From a virus: 24,431 nucleotides of DNA. Below, in pieces: positions 7,226 through 23,158 of the stretch. The stretch is taken from the IMG/VR virus record IMGVR_UViG_3300007541_000211, positions 1-24,431 of that record; one strand, 5' to 3'. The notes beneath the pieces are model-generated. The model ran no database searches. It was not told where the DNA came from and was given only the letters and a program-made list of their open reading frames with translations. The position numbers were made by a program, and so were the translations under genes. Position 1 is the first letter of the stretch; each line of letters starts with the position of its first letter.

Positions 7226-7837
7226 TTATATATTAGCATAACTTTCTTGTTTCCACAAGAGGTCTAACTTCTTATCAAATACCATTACATATCTGTGTTT
7301 ACGGGAGCGATTTTTCCATTCTCCATTGCACCCCTTAACAGAACCTCTGGAATGCTTGGTGCCATCGGCATAGTAGAAATCTTTCTTTGAATCTGATAGA
7401 CCGCAATACCTAAAGTTGCAAGCCCGATAAATTGTGCCGTTATGATAGTCGCTATCAGCGTATGAGATGATTGCTTTGACTTCTGTATCTTTTCTAAGTC
7501 TCTTAATCGCCTTTGAAACGAACCAAGAAGTGATATTATACTCTCCCTGCTGAGTATCGGGGTGGATGCAGAGCCTTGAGAGTTCGAAGAGTCCTTGCTG
7601 TTCATTTCTTTCTAGTCCAAATGCACCTTTTGCAATTTCTGGTACGGGAAGTCCTGTAAAGATACAAACTCCCAATGTACCTCCAATATTTAGAGGTGAA
7701 AAGTCATTTTTCTTAAAAAGACCGTAATTCCAACCTGACTTAAATCCTTTAGAAAAGTCCTTCAAATAGTGATAGGTAAGTAAAAGTTCTTTTGCTTCCT
7801 TTTTACCTATTCTATCAATATAGTAGTCAGATTTCAT
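7226..7837 (-). CDS. Mom-like DNA adenine modification protein (GNAT-type fold)
   Basis: A 203-residue protein resembling the Mom family, whose phage Mu member converts adenine to a carbamoylmethylated form that resists restriction. Motifs seen: YHYLK near residue 22; ELSRLCIHPD (85-94), the acyl-CoA-binding-type strand-helix region; ISYADSDYHNGTIYRACNFRYCG (124-146), close to the SYAD..GH.G.IY.A...Y.G signature of Mom-like proteins; and a C-terminal basic KHRYV (180-184). Mu Mom is of similar size. The start overlaps the end of the preceding small ORF by 11 nt and a strong terminator follows. Under the host-type promoter upstream it would be made early, which suits protection of phage DNA. 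The function is inferred from motifs; another GNAT-like activity is possible. Confidence 0.6.
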   Translation of the reverse strand: MKSDYYIDRIGKKEAKELLLTYHYLKDFSKGFKSGWNYGLFKKNDFSPLNIGGTLGVCIFTGLPVPEIAKGAFGLERNEQQGLFELSRLCIHPDTQQGEYNITSWFVSKAIKRLRKDTEVKAIISYADSDYHNGTIYRACNFRYCGLSDSKKDFYYADGTKHSRGSVKGCNGEWKNRSRKHRYVMVFDKKLDLLWKQESYANI

Positions 7838-14640: not shown

Positions 14641-14859
14641 TCAGTCCTCGTAAATTCTACACTCAGATGCGTCTGGATGCTCGTCACAGTACATCTCAAG
14701 AGGTGTTGGATCATGATCCTCATCTGGATGCTTTGCTTGATACTGTTCGAGATGATCTAACTCATCTGCCACATGACGGCGCATTTGTGGAGAGAGTGTT
14801 CCATTCTCTAACATGTCTTTATCATCATTAATATGTTGTTGAATACTTCTATCTGTCAT
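14641..14859 (-). CDS. CP12-like small protein in the baseplate operon
   Basis: 72 residues. The last 23 (DPTPLEMYCDEHPDASECRIYED, split as 50-58 and 59-72) match the CP12 C-terminus, including the Cys pair (C58, C67) eight residues apart and the ECRIYED end. In plant and cyanobacterial CP12 this half binds GAPDH, while an N-terminal Cys pair and AWD_VEEL core serve PRK binding; here the N-terminal Cys pair is absent and the core reads SPQMRRHVADELDHLEQYQA. CP12 is a redox regulator of the Calvin cycle, and some cyanophages carry it. The gene is locked into the late operon: 4-nt overlap with the hub gene before it, 2 nt before gp5, and its last codons contain gp5's Shine-Dalgarno. Alternative: a virion or chaperone protein with a convergent tail. 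Confidence 0.6.
   Translation of the reverse strand: MTDRSIQQHINDDKDMLENGTLSPQMRRHVADELDHLEQYQAKHPDEDHDPTPLEMYCDEHPDASECRIYED
14645..14649 (-). promoter_or_regulatory. Ribosome binding site of gp5, inside the CP12-like gene
   Basis: GAGGA on the minus strand, 6 nt before the GTG start at 14638. It overlaps the last codons of the CP12-like gene and supports the GTG start and translational coupling. Confidence 0.6.
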
Positions 14860-18440: not shown

Positions 18441-20561
18441 TTATCCTACCATATTATACATTGCTTTAACGACCAAAACACTCATGTTCATTGGATCCTC
18501 TGGAGATATTGTAGGAACCGTTGGTTGATTTGGAGTAGCAGAACTAGTGATTGTTGTTGGTGCTGGAGCAGGAATTGGTAAGAAGGTAGCACCAGATGGT
18601 TCTTTCAGTGAAGCAAGATTTAAATTAGCAACTTTCTGTTGTGTGGATGAACTTGCTAAGAATTGTGCAGGATTCACCGTTCCAGATATACCAAATCCAG
18701 GATTGCTTCTGATCTCATAATGAATCACACCAGTTTTAGATTCACCTTGGGTGATCGGATGTCCAGGTGAAACCATTTGTCCCTGCGTTACAAGGACTTT
18801 TTGACCCTCTGCAATTCTTTCATAAACACCCAAGACAGAATTGAAAATATCAACGTAGTTTCCATATCCTTGTGCTGTACCAACTTTTGTTACGATACCA
18901 CCAATTCTAGAAAAGAACTTGTCATTAGGTCCAATGTCATAATCTACACCAGCATGTTGTCTGGCACCACCATCTCTAGAAGCGCCGTAATGTTGTCCTT
19001 GAATTGTGTTGGTTGGTGGTAGAGGAGGAATCATTCCACCACCTGCTGCTGTCATAATATTGAAAGGACCCATTCCAGGTTGGTTTGTACCACCTGCCAT
19101 CTTGTTCATTGCAAGCAAGGTATCTCTTCCGAAGAAGTCACCTGCTTTGTTGCTCATCACAACTTCTCCAGGAGACAGTGCAGTAAGTTGTGTATCTGGT
19201 CCCAGTCCAGTTATAGGAAGACCTGTTGTTTTATCAACTTGTCCACCACCTTCAAATTGAAATTTTGGAATTTGTGGCGGATCCGGAATGGTTGGAAGAT
19301 TAGATCCCGATATTGGAGGCAGTCCAAGAAGAGAAGAAAGTCTATTAATTTGATTTACTAATTCGTTAATGCCCGCGTTAATTCCATTAATAACCGCATT
19401 GATTGGAGCAACAACCAAATTATAAATGAATGCTATTACATTGTTCAAAAAATCTATTATTTGATTAGCAAAACTTTTAAGTGGATTTAAAATTATCGAC
19501 GGATTTTTTAAAACAGAAAGTAAAAAATTAACTGCAGATCCAAGCAAAATATTCAAGAAGAAATTTTTGATCATGTCAAAAATATTAGTAAATGGTTTGG
19601 TAATTTTACTAACCAACTCCTTTGATTTTTTAGAAACTCCTTCTAGTTCAGACTCTCTTGTTTTTTTCTTTTGCTTTTGCCCCTCTATTCGTTCCTTCTC
19701 TGTTTTTTTCTTTTCAAGATTAATTTGTTCCTCAAGTATGCTGAGTATATCTGAAACAACACTATTGATAGACTTGAGAGACTCTGTTAATTCTTCTAAT
19801 ATTTTATTTGGTATTTTTTCTTCTTCTGGTTTGTCTTCAACTTGTGTTGCCGCTGGTGGCAATAATCTTTTTGGATCTAATTGTACTTTAGTTTCTGCAC
19901 CACCTGGTTTTCTACTTACAACTTTTTCAGCACTAATTTTTGTTGCCTTTACCTTGAATCTTCCTGTCTTTCCTTTGACCCGCTTGAATTCATCAGTAAT
20001 TAATTGAGTCGTATCAGTATCACCCGATCCAGTTAATCTTCCTTCTGCTGCTTTTTCTTTTAACAAAGAAAGATATTCTTCATAAGTAAAGTCAAATACA
20101 TCCTGGAGTCCAAGAATTGCTAAGATCTTTTCATCAATTTTTTCCTCTACAAGATCAGTTCCTTTCTTGCCAACAGGAACAATTGCGGAGGAAGTTGGTT
20201 TTTGTTTCTTGACTTCTTTTTTCTCTTCCCGTATCTCTTTTAATATTTCATCCAGACCAGGTGGTTCACTACTATTCAGATACTCTTCTACTAACCAGTT
20301 CTGGTATGCTTCCAGATTATAATATCCACCATCCTTTCCTTTTTGATCTACTTGAGGATACCCACGGGGATCCTTCTTCATCTTGGCAATTATTTTATCA
20401 GCATCTGCTGATGATAAGCGAACGAAAGAAGAATACTCTATACCAGCAGCGTCCTTACCACCAGTTAATCGTGCCTTAAGTCTGTCCCAAAGCGCATCAG
20501 AAACTCTTCCCTTATACCAAGGTTGATCTCTATCTAAAAAGTCTAGGGAAGTGGTTGGCAT
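18441..20561 (-). CDS. Tape-measure-position protein with degenerate M23 peptidase domain
   Basis: 706 residues. Residues ~250-315 are charged coiled coil; 330-400 hydrophobic helices (FFLNILLGSAVNFLL, FLNNVIAFIYNLVVAPINAV). Residues ~520-635 are an M23 (LytM-type) domain: RQHAGVDYDIG keeps zinc ligands H536 and D540, GIVTKVGTAQGYGNYVDI is the usual core, and GVIHYEIRSNP keeps ligand H614. The two catalytic His of active M23 enzymes read R582 (YERI for Y.HL) and V612 (VIH for HLH), so hydrolysis is unlikely. It directly follows gp26-gp51 (ATG 1 nt after the gp51 stop), where tail chaperone genes usually precede the tape measure; that role is inference. It shares a module with the next gene. 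Confidence 0.65.
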   Translation of the reverse strand: MPTTSLDFLDRDQPWYKGRVSDALWDRLKARLTGGKDAAGIEYSSFVRLSSADADKIIAKMKKDPRGYPQVDQKGKDGGYYNLEAYQNWLVEEYLNSSEPPGLDEILKEIREEKKEVKKQKPTSSAIVPVGKKGTDLVEEKIDEKILAILGLQDVFDFTYEEYLSLLKEKAAEGRLTGSGDTDTTQLITDEFKRVKGKTGRFKVKATKISAEKVVSRKPGGAETKVQLDPKRLLPPAATQVEDKPEEEKIPNKILEELTESLKSINSVVSDILSILEEQINLEKKKTEKERIEGQKQKKKTRESELEGVSKKSKELVSKITKPFTNIFDMIKNFFLNILLGSAVNFLLSVLKNPSIILNPLKSFANQIIDFLNNVIAFIYNLVVAPINAVINGINAGINELVNQINRLSSLLGLPPISGSNLPTIPDPPQIPKFQFEGGGQVDKTTGLPITGLGPDTQLTALSPGEVVMSNKAGDFFGRDTLLAMNKMAGGTNQPGMGPFNIMTAAGGGMIPPLPPTNTIQGQHYGASRDGGARQHAGVDYDIGPNDKFFSRIGGIVTKVGTAQGYGNYVDIFNSVLGVYERIAEGQKVLVTQGQMVSPGHPITQGESKTGVIHYEIRSNPGFGISGTVNPAQFLASSSTQQKVANLNLASLKEPSGATFLPIPAPAPTTITSSATPNQPTVPTISPEDPMNMSVLVVKAMYNMVG

Positions 20562-20562
20562 T

Positions 20563-20727
20563 TTATTGTTTTTGCTGTTGCTTTAGTTTTTCCTCTTCCA
20601 GATGCTGTTGTAACAGCGCAATGTAGATATCCCTCTCCCAAGGTATCATATTCTCAAGTTCTGTTAGTGAATATTTATGGTACTGCATCAAAGCAAAATT
20701 GATCTTGAAGTAGTTTTCAAGATCCAT
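20563..20727 (-). CDS. 51: gp51-like tail/hub assembly protein, also readable as a -1 frameshift extension of gp26
   Basis: 54 residues from ATG 20727 (an in-frame ATG at 20736 is possible) to TAA 20563. It reads MDLENYFKINFALMQYHKYS then LTELENMIPWERDIYIALLQ and ends with a Glu- and Gln-rich tail. The pattern (helix, Y.L.EL..MPWER.IYI.LL..H..EE) is that of gp51-like hub assembly proteins and of the T part of G/GT tail chaperones. AGGA 9 nt before ATG 20727 would allow separate translation. In the frame above it is open through the end of gp26, past a T_TTT_TTC heptamer, so a 298-residue gp26-gp51 fusion is possible. The family call rests on motif and position. Confidence 0.65.
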   Translation of the reverse strand: MDLENYFKINFALMQYHKYSLTELENMIPWERDIYIALLQQHLEEEKLKQQQKQ

Positions 20728-20738
20728 ATGCACCATTC

Positions 20739-21458
20739 CTAGCCGAAAAAACTGGACAGACCCTCAAGAACAACAACACTTTCAACACCAGTATTGGGAT
20801 TTTTTAGAGTAACTTCATGAGAAAGTTTTGGCATAGTCTCAAAAAATTTCTCAATTTGTTTGAATTGAACACTGTTCATCTGTTCTAAGAAGTCATTAAT
20901 TTCTTTCTTAGTGCAGTCAGCGACAGTCCATACTTCTTCTTGATTGTAAATCTTATCGATACATGTTGCGATCAATTCAAATGATTGATCCAATCCAGAA
21001 TCAGTAGAGAAATCAAAATTATTCTTGATAAACTGTTCCAAAGAAGGATACTTCATTTCCATGATGAGATTATCATCAAGTTTAATTTTTTTCTCGTGAC
21101 CTTCTTTGGTCTGAACTTTGATGTCATCAATATTAATTTTTACAGTAACAGGAGTCACTTCATCATCTGGTGCAATGAAACTGACTTCAATTTCTTCACC
21201 AACAGATTTACCACGAATATTCAAAAACAAATATTCAATATCAAATGTGGGTAAGGATTCTACCTTGACACCTCTTGTTTGAATGCAACTTTTTAATACT
21301 GCTTTGATTGCACTCGATATCTCTTTTGTACTCTCACTTTCTAGTGCAAGAACCAAAAGTTTTTCTTCTTTTACAAGGAAAGGTCTATACTTAATTGTTT
21401 GTCCTGACGAAGGCAACTCAAGTTCATAAGTTGGAGTCGCAATTGTTGGTAAAGGCAT
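20739..21458 (-). CDS. 26: Baseplate hub assembly protein gp26
   Basis: 239 residues, matching the T4 gp26 baseplate family. Landmarks: LPSSGQTIKYRPFLVKEEKL, ALESESTKEISSAIKAVLKS, LPTFDIEYLFLNIRGKSVGE and VTVKI...IKLDDNLIMEMKYPS. The family takes part in hub assembly and resembles tail assembly chaperones. The ATG at 21458 is preceded by AGGA 4 nt away and by a late-promoter-like box 29 nt upstream. The gene ends in SSFFG with the last codons lying on a slippery T_TTT_TTC sequence. Confidence 0.8.
   Translation of the reverse strand: MPLPTIATPTYELELPSSGQTIKYRPFLVKEEKLLVLALESESTKEISSAIKAVLKSCIQTRGVKVESLPTFDIEYLFLNIRGKSVGEEIEVSFIAPDDEVTPVTVKINIDDIKVQTKEGHEKKIKLDDNLIMEMKYPSLEQFIKNNFDFSTDSGLDQSFELIATCIDKIYNQEEVWTVADCTKKEINDFLEQMNSVQFKQIEKFFETMPKLSHEVTLKNPNTGVESVVVLEGLSSFFG
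20745..20751 (-). promoter_or_regulatory. Slippery heptamer T_TTT_TTC: predicted -1 frameshift site joining gp26 to gp51
   Basis: In the gp26 frame the minus strand reads AGT TTT TTC GGC TAG, a canonical X_XXY_YYZ heptamer two codons before the stop. A -1 slip continues as TTT TTT CGG CTA GGA ATG GTG CAT ATG and enters the gp51-like frame with no intervening stop. Pairing and spacing are exactly as required; usage is predicted, not shown. Confidence 0.6.
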
Positions 21459-21496: not shown

Positions 21497-22327
21497 TCAG
21501 TCTCTGGGACCTCTAGGCGTTTCTCTAGGTTGTCTCGCCCTACCTACTGTAGCAGTGTATGCATCATTATACCATTTATTCAAGTCAGCCTGACTATTCA
21601 ATCCTATTGCTGTTGGTGCTCCCTGGATGCCGTTAAGTGCTGCTTGTGCTGGAGGAGGAACAGCAGCGCCAGCAACTGCAGTAGAAAGAGGTGTATCTGG
21701 TTTTCTATTACTTCTCTTTCTAATATATCTCATATAAGAGAAAGATGCTGTGCACTTCAGAATATTACTTGCTTCATATGAAACAGGTGAAGATGTTATG
21801 CTGAGAGGAAATGCACCAATAAACTGATAGGTCATATTAATACCACTGGTATCTTTCTCAAATTTTGTTATGTAAAGATTATCAGTCTTATATGAATTGG
21901 GATAGTTCATTCTATAGTGAGTGGTCCTATCAACGTATTGGTCTGTGGTGAAAGTTGTTTCTTGACCAGTTACATAATTCATCCATGCATCAAGATATTC
22001 AATGACATTATAACTTTTATCCACATAGAAAGTAAAGTCTATTGTTTCATCATATATTCTTCTATATGCAAACTTCTCAGTAACTCCAGGATAATCATTC
22101 GTTACATCATGTGTTGCAAGAGATGATCCAGGAAGATTTGTATCACAACAAAGAAGTTCGATGTTATTAATATCCGCACCATTAATTCCTCTTGCCTTGA
22201 GAAAATCACTTCCGTTAAGTCCTGGTGGTGGAGTTAGACCAACAATATAAACAGAGGTTTGAGCAAGATTTAAAAGGTTGCTCTTTATCTGATTTATTGA
22301 TAGTGTTCTTGGAGAAGGCGCTGCCAT
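21497..22327 (-). CDS. 54: Baseplate tail-tube protein, gp54-like
   Basis: 276 residues with the tail-tube fold signature of the gp19/gp54 group: TNLPGSS (64-70), YPGVTEKFAYRRIYDETIDF (79-98), FTFYVDK, VIEYLDAWMNYV (108-119), ITKFEKD, MTYQFIGAFPLSI (165-177) and the terminal ASFSYMRY (194-201). About 75 residues of Pro/Ala-rich and basic sequence follow, more than a plain tube protein has, which favours gp54 (tube initiator, 320 residues in T4) over gp19. gp48, its partner in T4, lies 0.9 kb away on the other strand. It starts 32 bp from the plus-strand gene group, so the two units are divergent. It could instead be another tube-like baseplate protein. Confidence 0.65.
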   Translation of the reverse strand: MAAPSPRTLSINQIKSNLLNLAQTSVYIVGLTPPPGLNGSDFLKARGINGADINNIELLCCDTNLPGSSLATHDVTNDYPGVTEKFAYRRIYDETIDFTFYVDKSYNVIEYLDAWMNYVTGQETTFTTDQYVDRTTHYRMNYPNSYKTDNLYITKFEKDTSGINMTYQFIGAFPLSITSSPVSYEASNILKCTASFSYMRYIRKRSNRKPDTPLSTAVAGAAVPPPAQAALNGIQGAPTAIGLNSQADLNKWYNDAYTATVGRARQPRETPRGPRD

Positions 22328-22336: not shown

Positions 22337-22368
22337 CTATTTGACCGTATATATTATGTATGCACGTT

Positions 22369-22848
22369 ATGGCAGAGAGTATCAAAAGCAGATACAAACC
22401 ATCTTTTCCAAAAAAATATAAGGGCAATCCAAACAATATTATATGCAGGAGTAGTTGGGAAAGAAAATTCTGTCATTGGTGCGACTTAAATGAAAACATT
22501 CTTGAGTGGGGTAGTGAGGAATTTTATATTCCATACATCTCCCCAATAGATAATAGAGTTCACAAATACTTTCCAGACTTTATTATAAAGGTAAAAGAGA
22601 GCACAGGTCAAGTTAAGACTTATGTGATTGAAGTCAAACCAAAGAAACAAACAGTTGAACCTCAGAAAAGATCAAGGGTAACTAAATCATTCATATATGA
22701 GTGCAAAACATATGCAGTGAATCAAGCAAAGTGGAAAGCAGCAAGAGAGTTTTGTGCTGATCGGTTGATAGAATTTAAAATCATTACCGAAGAAGAATTA
22801 GGTATCAAGGATGTCAGCAAGAACAAGGGAACTGGAAAAAAGAATTGA
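22369..22848 (+). CDS. 4: Head completion protein gp4 (TnsA-like nuclease fold)
   Basis: 159 residues from ATG 22369; three codons upstream another in-frame ATG (22360) exists, but 22369 gives MAES..., resembles the T4 start, and keeps the ~30-nt spacing from the late box. Matches T4 gp4 along its length: YKGNPNNIICRSSWERKF, ENILEWGSEEFYIPYISP, YFPDFIIKV, VIEVKPKKQT, YAVNQAKWKAAREF and FKIITEEELG. A PD-(D/E)xK-like set is visible (Glu of SSWERKF, Asp of YFPDF, Glu and Lys of EVK). T4 gp4 finishes heads before tail joining. The 3' end overlaps the next gene by 38 nt. Confidence 0.9.
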   Translation: MAESIKSRYKPSFPKKYKGNPNNIICRSSWERKFCHWCDLNENILEWGSEEFYIPYISPIDNRVHKYFPDFIIKVKESTGQVKTYVIEVKPKKQTVEPQKRSRVTKSFIYECKTYAVNQAKWKAAREFCADRLIEFKIITEEELGIKDVSKNKGTGKKN

Positions 22849-23158
22849 AGGTCTGGTTGATCCAGAATCCATTATGATAGAGATAATGGATGTATTTCAA
22901 GAGACTGAGATAATTCCTGACGTTGGAAAATATTATACTTTTATATACATACCAAAAACACAAGACATTGCTTTTGATCAACACCCCCTAGTTGCAGTAA
23001 CAGAAATATATCAATGGGGATTTAAAGGATTAAACTTTCATTGGAGAGAAGTTAGAAATTATACTTGGTTAGAAATAGCAGGATTTTTACACGTAATTAA
23101 AAATAATGAAATTGATTATATGAGAGGAATTAAATATGCAAGGTATCTTGTTTCGTAA
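22811..23158 (+). CDS. Unrecognised conserved phage protein, 115 residues
   Basis: Reads MSARTRELEKRIEGLVDPES..., then VGKYYTFIYIPKTQDIAFDQ, HPLVAVTEIYQWGFKGLNFH and WREVRNYTWLEIAGFLHVIKNNEIDYMRG. The central PLV....(8-9)..GF.GLNFHW pattern recalls a short phage structural or injection-related family (P.Y..T..FD.PLV...GF.GLN.HY) but is too brief for firm assignment. It is not gp53, which follows gp4 in T4 and is longer with different sequence. It begins inside the gp4 3' end and is followed by a short leader ORF and gp48, so it is probably a late gene. Confidence 0.65.
   Translation: MSARTRELEKRIEGLVDPESIMIEIMDVFQETEIIPDVGKYYTFIYIPKTQDIAFDQHPLVAVTEIYQWGFKGLNFHWREVRNYTWLEIAGFLHVIKNNEIDYMRGIKYARYLVS

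Follow-up and report, generated by a model that had tools for sequence, protein, structure and literature searches.

The gp26 gene in the window (the whole stretch of viral DNA analyzed here, 24,431 nucleotides) very probably carries a programmed -1 frameshift at a T_TTT_TTC heptamer, which would produce short and long forms of a tail assembly chaperone pair of the lambda G/GT type. Such a pair had been proposed from a sequence-only reading of the window, and it is supported by a conserved heptamer, a -1 frame under selection, and a tape-measure-like neighbor. We consider a short and a long chaperone made by programmed -1 frameshifting to be by far the best reading of this junction, because the heptamer, its frame, and the position of the stop codon are conserved and the -1 frame is selected, and because there is no conserved gp51 start codon and a tape-measure-like gene comes next.

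The 3' end of gp26 reads GGT CTG TCC AGT TTT TTC GGC TAG, and the protein ends in ...GLSSFFG*. The heptamer lies in the gp26 frame close to the stop codon, as had been noted, but a single sense codon (GGC), rather than two, separates it from TAG. A -1 shift at the heptamer leads through an open frame into the gp51-like ORF and gives a fusion, ...SSFFRLGMVHMDLENYF..., with a total length of 298 aa and a TAA stop codon at 20565..20563, which agrees with the fusion predicted earlier. The tape-measure-like gene begins with an ATG at 20561, one base past this TAA. We note that the close spacing of the long-form TAA and this ATG (20561-20565, minus strand) might allow translation of the tape measure to be coupled to frameshifting ribosomes. 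Coordinates of all features are given in Table 1.

Table 1. Features of the gp26/gp51 junction and flanking genes in the window.
Feature	Coordinates	Strand	Remarks
Tail-tube-like protein, upstream gene	21497..22327	-	PF23849 E 1.1e-13; PHROG 45 tail tube E 6.9e-40
gp26, putative short tail assembly chaperone (TAC-N), 239 aa	20739..21458	-	PF12322, PHROG 150
Shine-Dalgarno-like GAGGG	20761..20765	-	GAGG ends 10 nt upstream of heptamer
Slippery heptamer T_TTT_TTC, in gp26 frame	20745..20751	-	Followed by GGC and TAG (20741..20739)
-1 frame extension, FFRLGMVHMDLENYF...KQQQKQ	20563..20751	-	62 codons plus stop; putative C-terminal part of TAC-NC
Stem position, 5-bp stem with 4-nt loop, 10 nt after heptamer	20721..20734	-	Covariation in clade
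9-bp hairpin, GATCTTGAA-AACTAC-TTCAAGATC	20701..20724	-	Strong in window, not conserved; folding z about -2.7 to -4.1
Tape-measure-like protein, next gene, 706 aa, C-terminal M23 peptidase domain	18441..20561	-	PHROG, Pfam

The gp26 protein scored 252.9 bits with Pfam PF12322 (T4_baseplate), for which the cut-off is 24.5, and matched PHROG 150 with an E of 1.7e-80. The -1 extension matched the gp51 family PHROG 634 (baseplate hub assembly catalyst) with an E of 4.4e-29 and resembled the end of PHROG 150 as well. The junction sits between the tail-tube-like gene upstream and the tape-measure-like gene that follows. The latter matched tape measure families in PHROG, with E values of 2.5e-10 and weaker, consistent with the tape-measure position assigned to it before any database search, as well as Pfam PF01551 (E 8e-8). 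An AlphaFold model of gp26 (pLDDT 87) matched gp26 proteins and one protein annotated as a gp51-type catalyst in a viral structure library. Fold and sequence searches of the PDB returned no significant homolog; the HK97 chaperone 2ob9 ranked third in the search with the gp26 model, a weak and nonsignificant match (E about 0.9).

Alignment of related junctions, suggested as a check along with the original proposal, showed that the heptamer, its frame, and the stop position are conserved while the flanking codons drift. Across the closest set of 81 loci (80 IMG/VR contigs and the window, with 68%–79% protein identity), T_TTT_TTC followed by one sense codon and a stop was identical in every locus. 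Only three of 123 conserved degenerate codon columns in gp26 were without synonymous change, and two of these were the Phe-Phe codons of the heptamer. The second Phe column was the only invariant column fixed on a minority codon, TTC, which accounts for 31% of Phe use. The codon preceding Phe-Phe was AGT or TCT (GGT once), always with a final T. The pattern extended to the full T4-like set, for which the closest loci, four further scans, and 20 public regions gave 334 complete gp26 junctions: an in-frame T_TTT_TT[C/T/A] was found close to the gp26 stop in 331 of them, a count of related sequences, including some re-sequenced isolates, rather than of independent events. In these 331 junctions, the -1 frame after the heptamer was open for 57–75 codons. 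Carriers of the heptamer include Kyanoviridae, Eurybiavirus, and Straboviridae (phiAS5, Aeh1, VH7D, and V05), as well as phages of Sinorhizobium, Stenotrophomonas, Pseudomonas, Acidovorax, Caulobacter, Ochrobactrum, and Desulfovibrio. T_TTT_TTN was absent from three Ackermannviridae-type Vibrio phages, D503, 207E48.1, and Kuja, of which the latter two are assigned by record or family and D503 by its resemblance to 207E48.1. These Ackermannviridae-type phages may use a variant slippery signal, because CTT_TTC or CTT_TTT occupies the same place and the -1 frame is open.

Conservation on this scale also bears on whether the junction is two conserved Phe codons followed by an accidentally open frame. 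The main genes of the window, roughly 6,900 codons in all, contain in-frame T_TTT_TTC three times, so twice outside gp26, but only at gp26 does it lie near a gene end. A 62-codon open frame arose in 116 of 20,000 composition shuffles. Because T_TTT_TTN is kept in 331 of 334 junctions, the junction is not due to chance; with codon-level invariance and the PHROG 634 match added, we regard a coincidence as already refuted and its probability as negligible.

pN/pS values show that the -1 frame is under purifying protein selection, which already acts on the stretch separating the gp26 stop from the ATG. Directly after the gp26 stop, pN/pS was 0.30 in the -1 frame versus 1.36 in the gp26 frame, and further downstream it was 0.14 versus 1.29. 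This selection before any ATG argues against gp51 being a separate short gene, translated by termination-reinitiation or from its own ATG after the gp26 TAG, with the heptamer representing mere Phe codons. Public cyanophage records do annotate gp51 in this way, and in the window two ATGs follow TAG closely in the -1 frame (20736..20734 and 20727), the first of them 2 nt after it, so reinitiation is possible for this one phage. However, ATG was missing from the first 15 codons of the -1 frame in 133 of 331 loci, and ATG, GTG, and TTG were all missing in 102 of 331; with so many loci lacking a start codon, a separately started gp51 is not the general rule. Furthermore, the Shine-Dalgarno-like motif in the window is placed 10 nt before the heptamer but about 25 nt before the first ATG, and T4 gp51 corresponds to the full-length long form, as described below. 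Taken with these observations, a separate gp51 gene appears improbable.

The upstream motif is itself consistent with ribosomal frameshifting. Among the 81 close relatives, 58 have a GAGG that lies upstream of the heptamer at a spacing of 10 nt, and the S-SM1 and P-HM1 clades had the same GAGG motif or AAGG. In the 20 nt that precede the heptamer, the predicted duplex with the anti-Shine-Dalgarno sequence had a mean energy of -7.2 kcal/mol versus -6.2 kcal/mol under synonymous resampling, with none of 200 resamplings as low, and the background in other gp26 stretches was -2.1 kcal/mol. A motif directed at the ribosome speaks against transcriptional slippage on the T run as the source of the -1 frame. 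A homopolymer of six T is present, as slippage of this kind would call for, but RNA polymerase slippage occurs on longer homopolymer runs, and six T is short for it in bacteria. In addition, the run is exactly six T and ends in C in nearly all loci, with a fixed codon frame. We therefore judge transcriptional slippage to be highly improbable and retain ribosomal frameshifting as the source of the -1 frame.

Downstream of the heptamer, evidence for RNA structure was limited to part of the family. Within the window's clade, the 5-bp stem showed 41 double-sided changes versus 10.6 in shuffles (with low values when the position was slid). Fully paired rows numbered 44 versus 30 when shuffling preserved the codons, and 40 independent sister pairs contained 10 double changes versus 0–5 in slid controls. 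The stem was first spotted in folds of the same sequences, so the independence of these tests from its discovery is incomplete. The window's own copy forms four of the five pairs, with one G-G mismatch, and the window folds strongly through other pairings. The stem was absent from the S-SM1 clade, and RNAalifold predicted no consensus structure across the whole junction alignment. We consider the stem a probable but secondary feature, because it is clade-limited and absent around S-SM1. Among other candidates, the window's 9-bp hairpin, as a conserved element, and a long-range helix pairing columns 43–49 with 96–102 of alignment A1 were both rejected for lack of covariation, and a bulged 9-bp version of the 5-bp stem gained little.

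Together, these elements resemble the frameshift signal of Escherichia coli dnaX, in which a Shine-Dalgarno-like motif precedes a homopolymeric heptamer by about 10 nt and a stem follows downstream. The junction in the window shares the spacing of the motif, the homopolymeric heptamer, and the downstream stem, but the dnaX heptamer consists of A rather than T, and the stem here is weaker and clade-limited. The outcomes also differ, as the dnaX shift leads to an early stop and the shift in the window to an extension. It is tentatively possible, at somewhat less than an even chance, that T4-type cyanophages use a three-part signal like that of dnaX, with GAGG 10 nt upstream, T_TTT_TTC, and a short downstream stem that compensatory changes maintain within the clade of the window and that gives way to different structures in other clades.

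The arrangement of products recalls lambda, where gpG and the longer, -1 frameshifted gpGT are encoded just before the tape measure gene. The window shares the short form, the -1 long form, and the tape measure gene next to them. The lambda slippery site is G_GGA_AAG rather than T_TTT_TTC, and the extension in the window is 60 residues long. By analogy, most ribosomes would stop at TAG and release the 239-aa short form (gp26, TAC-N), whereas a minority, paused by 16S rRNA pairing with the GAGGG that lies 10 nt upstream and probably assisted by RNA structure past the heptamer, would slip back one base at T_TTT_TTC. Slipped ribosomes would read FFRLGMVH... and complete the long form (TAC-NC, 298 aa), and the C-terminal segment added in this way would correspond to the C-terminal part of T4 gp51. 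As for lambda G and GT, both forms would then cover the tape measure protein, the product of the following gene, and bring in subunits of the tail tube. The sequence comparisons establish the heptamer, its frame and conservation, coding selection in the -1 frame, the upstream motif, and the homology to T4 gp26 and gp51, and from there we infer the occurrence of the shift, its rate, and the chaperone role.

Comparison with T4 clarified what gp51 corresponds to. A profile of the fusion proteins (298 positions) aligned with T4 gp26 over positions 10–240 and with T4 gp51 over positions 23–285, and T4 gp26 and gp51 matched each other by BLAST (E 6e-6). Gp51 of Aeromonas phage 25 aligned with the profile in two stretches, 13–98 and 135–291. 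The assumption that gp51 equates to the short downstream ORF alone thus does not hold, as T4 gp51 spans the whole fusion. Because it aligns along this length, T4 gp51 is, as judged by homology, the long form carried as its own gene, and T4 gp26 is the short form. In T4 and Aeromonas phage 25, the two forms are on separate, divergently oriented genes, and a frameshift is not needed; the window, a 24-kb fragment, differs from T4 in having one gp26-like gene with a -1 extension.

The idea that such a fusion would newly link T4 and lambda-type systems was anticipated in the literature. Two later papers, PMC10274946 and PMC12846349, credit Vladimirov, Gautam and Davidson (2022, Virology 566:9-15) with describing tail assembly chaperone genes of T4-like phages, with poly-T frameshift signals in the short-form genes and with separate genes in some phages. 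To the extent that these citing papers convey it, the gene pair, the short and long arrangement, and the 3'-terminal poly-T of the short form are the same as in the window. Since a poly-T chaperone frameshift in T4-like phages was, by these accounts, published in 2022, the junction belongs to an already described arrangement, and only the details of the stimulators may be new. The open-access literature searched contained no cyanophage-specific report of this gp26/gp51 frameshift.

Other genes in the window were also noted. A CP12 domain gene (14641-14859, minus strand; PF02672, E 1.4e-15) encodes a host-derived Calvin-cycle regulator typical of cyanophages, and its presence fits a cyanophage origin. 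A Mom-family protein (7226-7837, minus strand; PF25680, E 2.3e-25) is likely a DNA base modification gene product. A gene with a TnsA-like endonuclease domain (22360-22848, plus strand; PF08722) contains A_AAA_AAG in frame, five codons before it ends, but the ORF that overlaps it (22811-23158) is in the +1 frame and not the -1 frame.

These results place the window within the published scheme for T4-like chaperones. No new question about T4 is opened, because the homology is already published. In public phage records, gp51 is annotated as a gene of its own, "baseplate hub assembly catalyst"; going by the junction sequences, cyanophage records with gp26 and a tiny separate gp51 are probably misannotated and would instead contain one chaperone gene with a frameshift. 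The alignment of 331 junctions provides a deep and clean basis for asking which signals set the ratio of short to long form. If the three-part signal is real, it would be an undescribed set of stimulators in the gp26/gp51 family and would offer a natural series for the evolution of frameshift rates.
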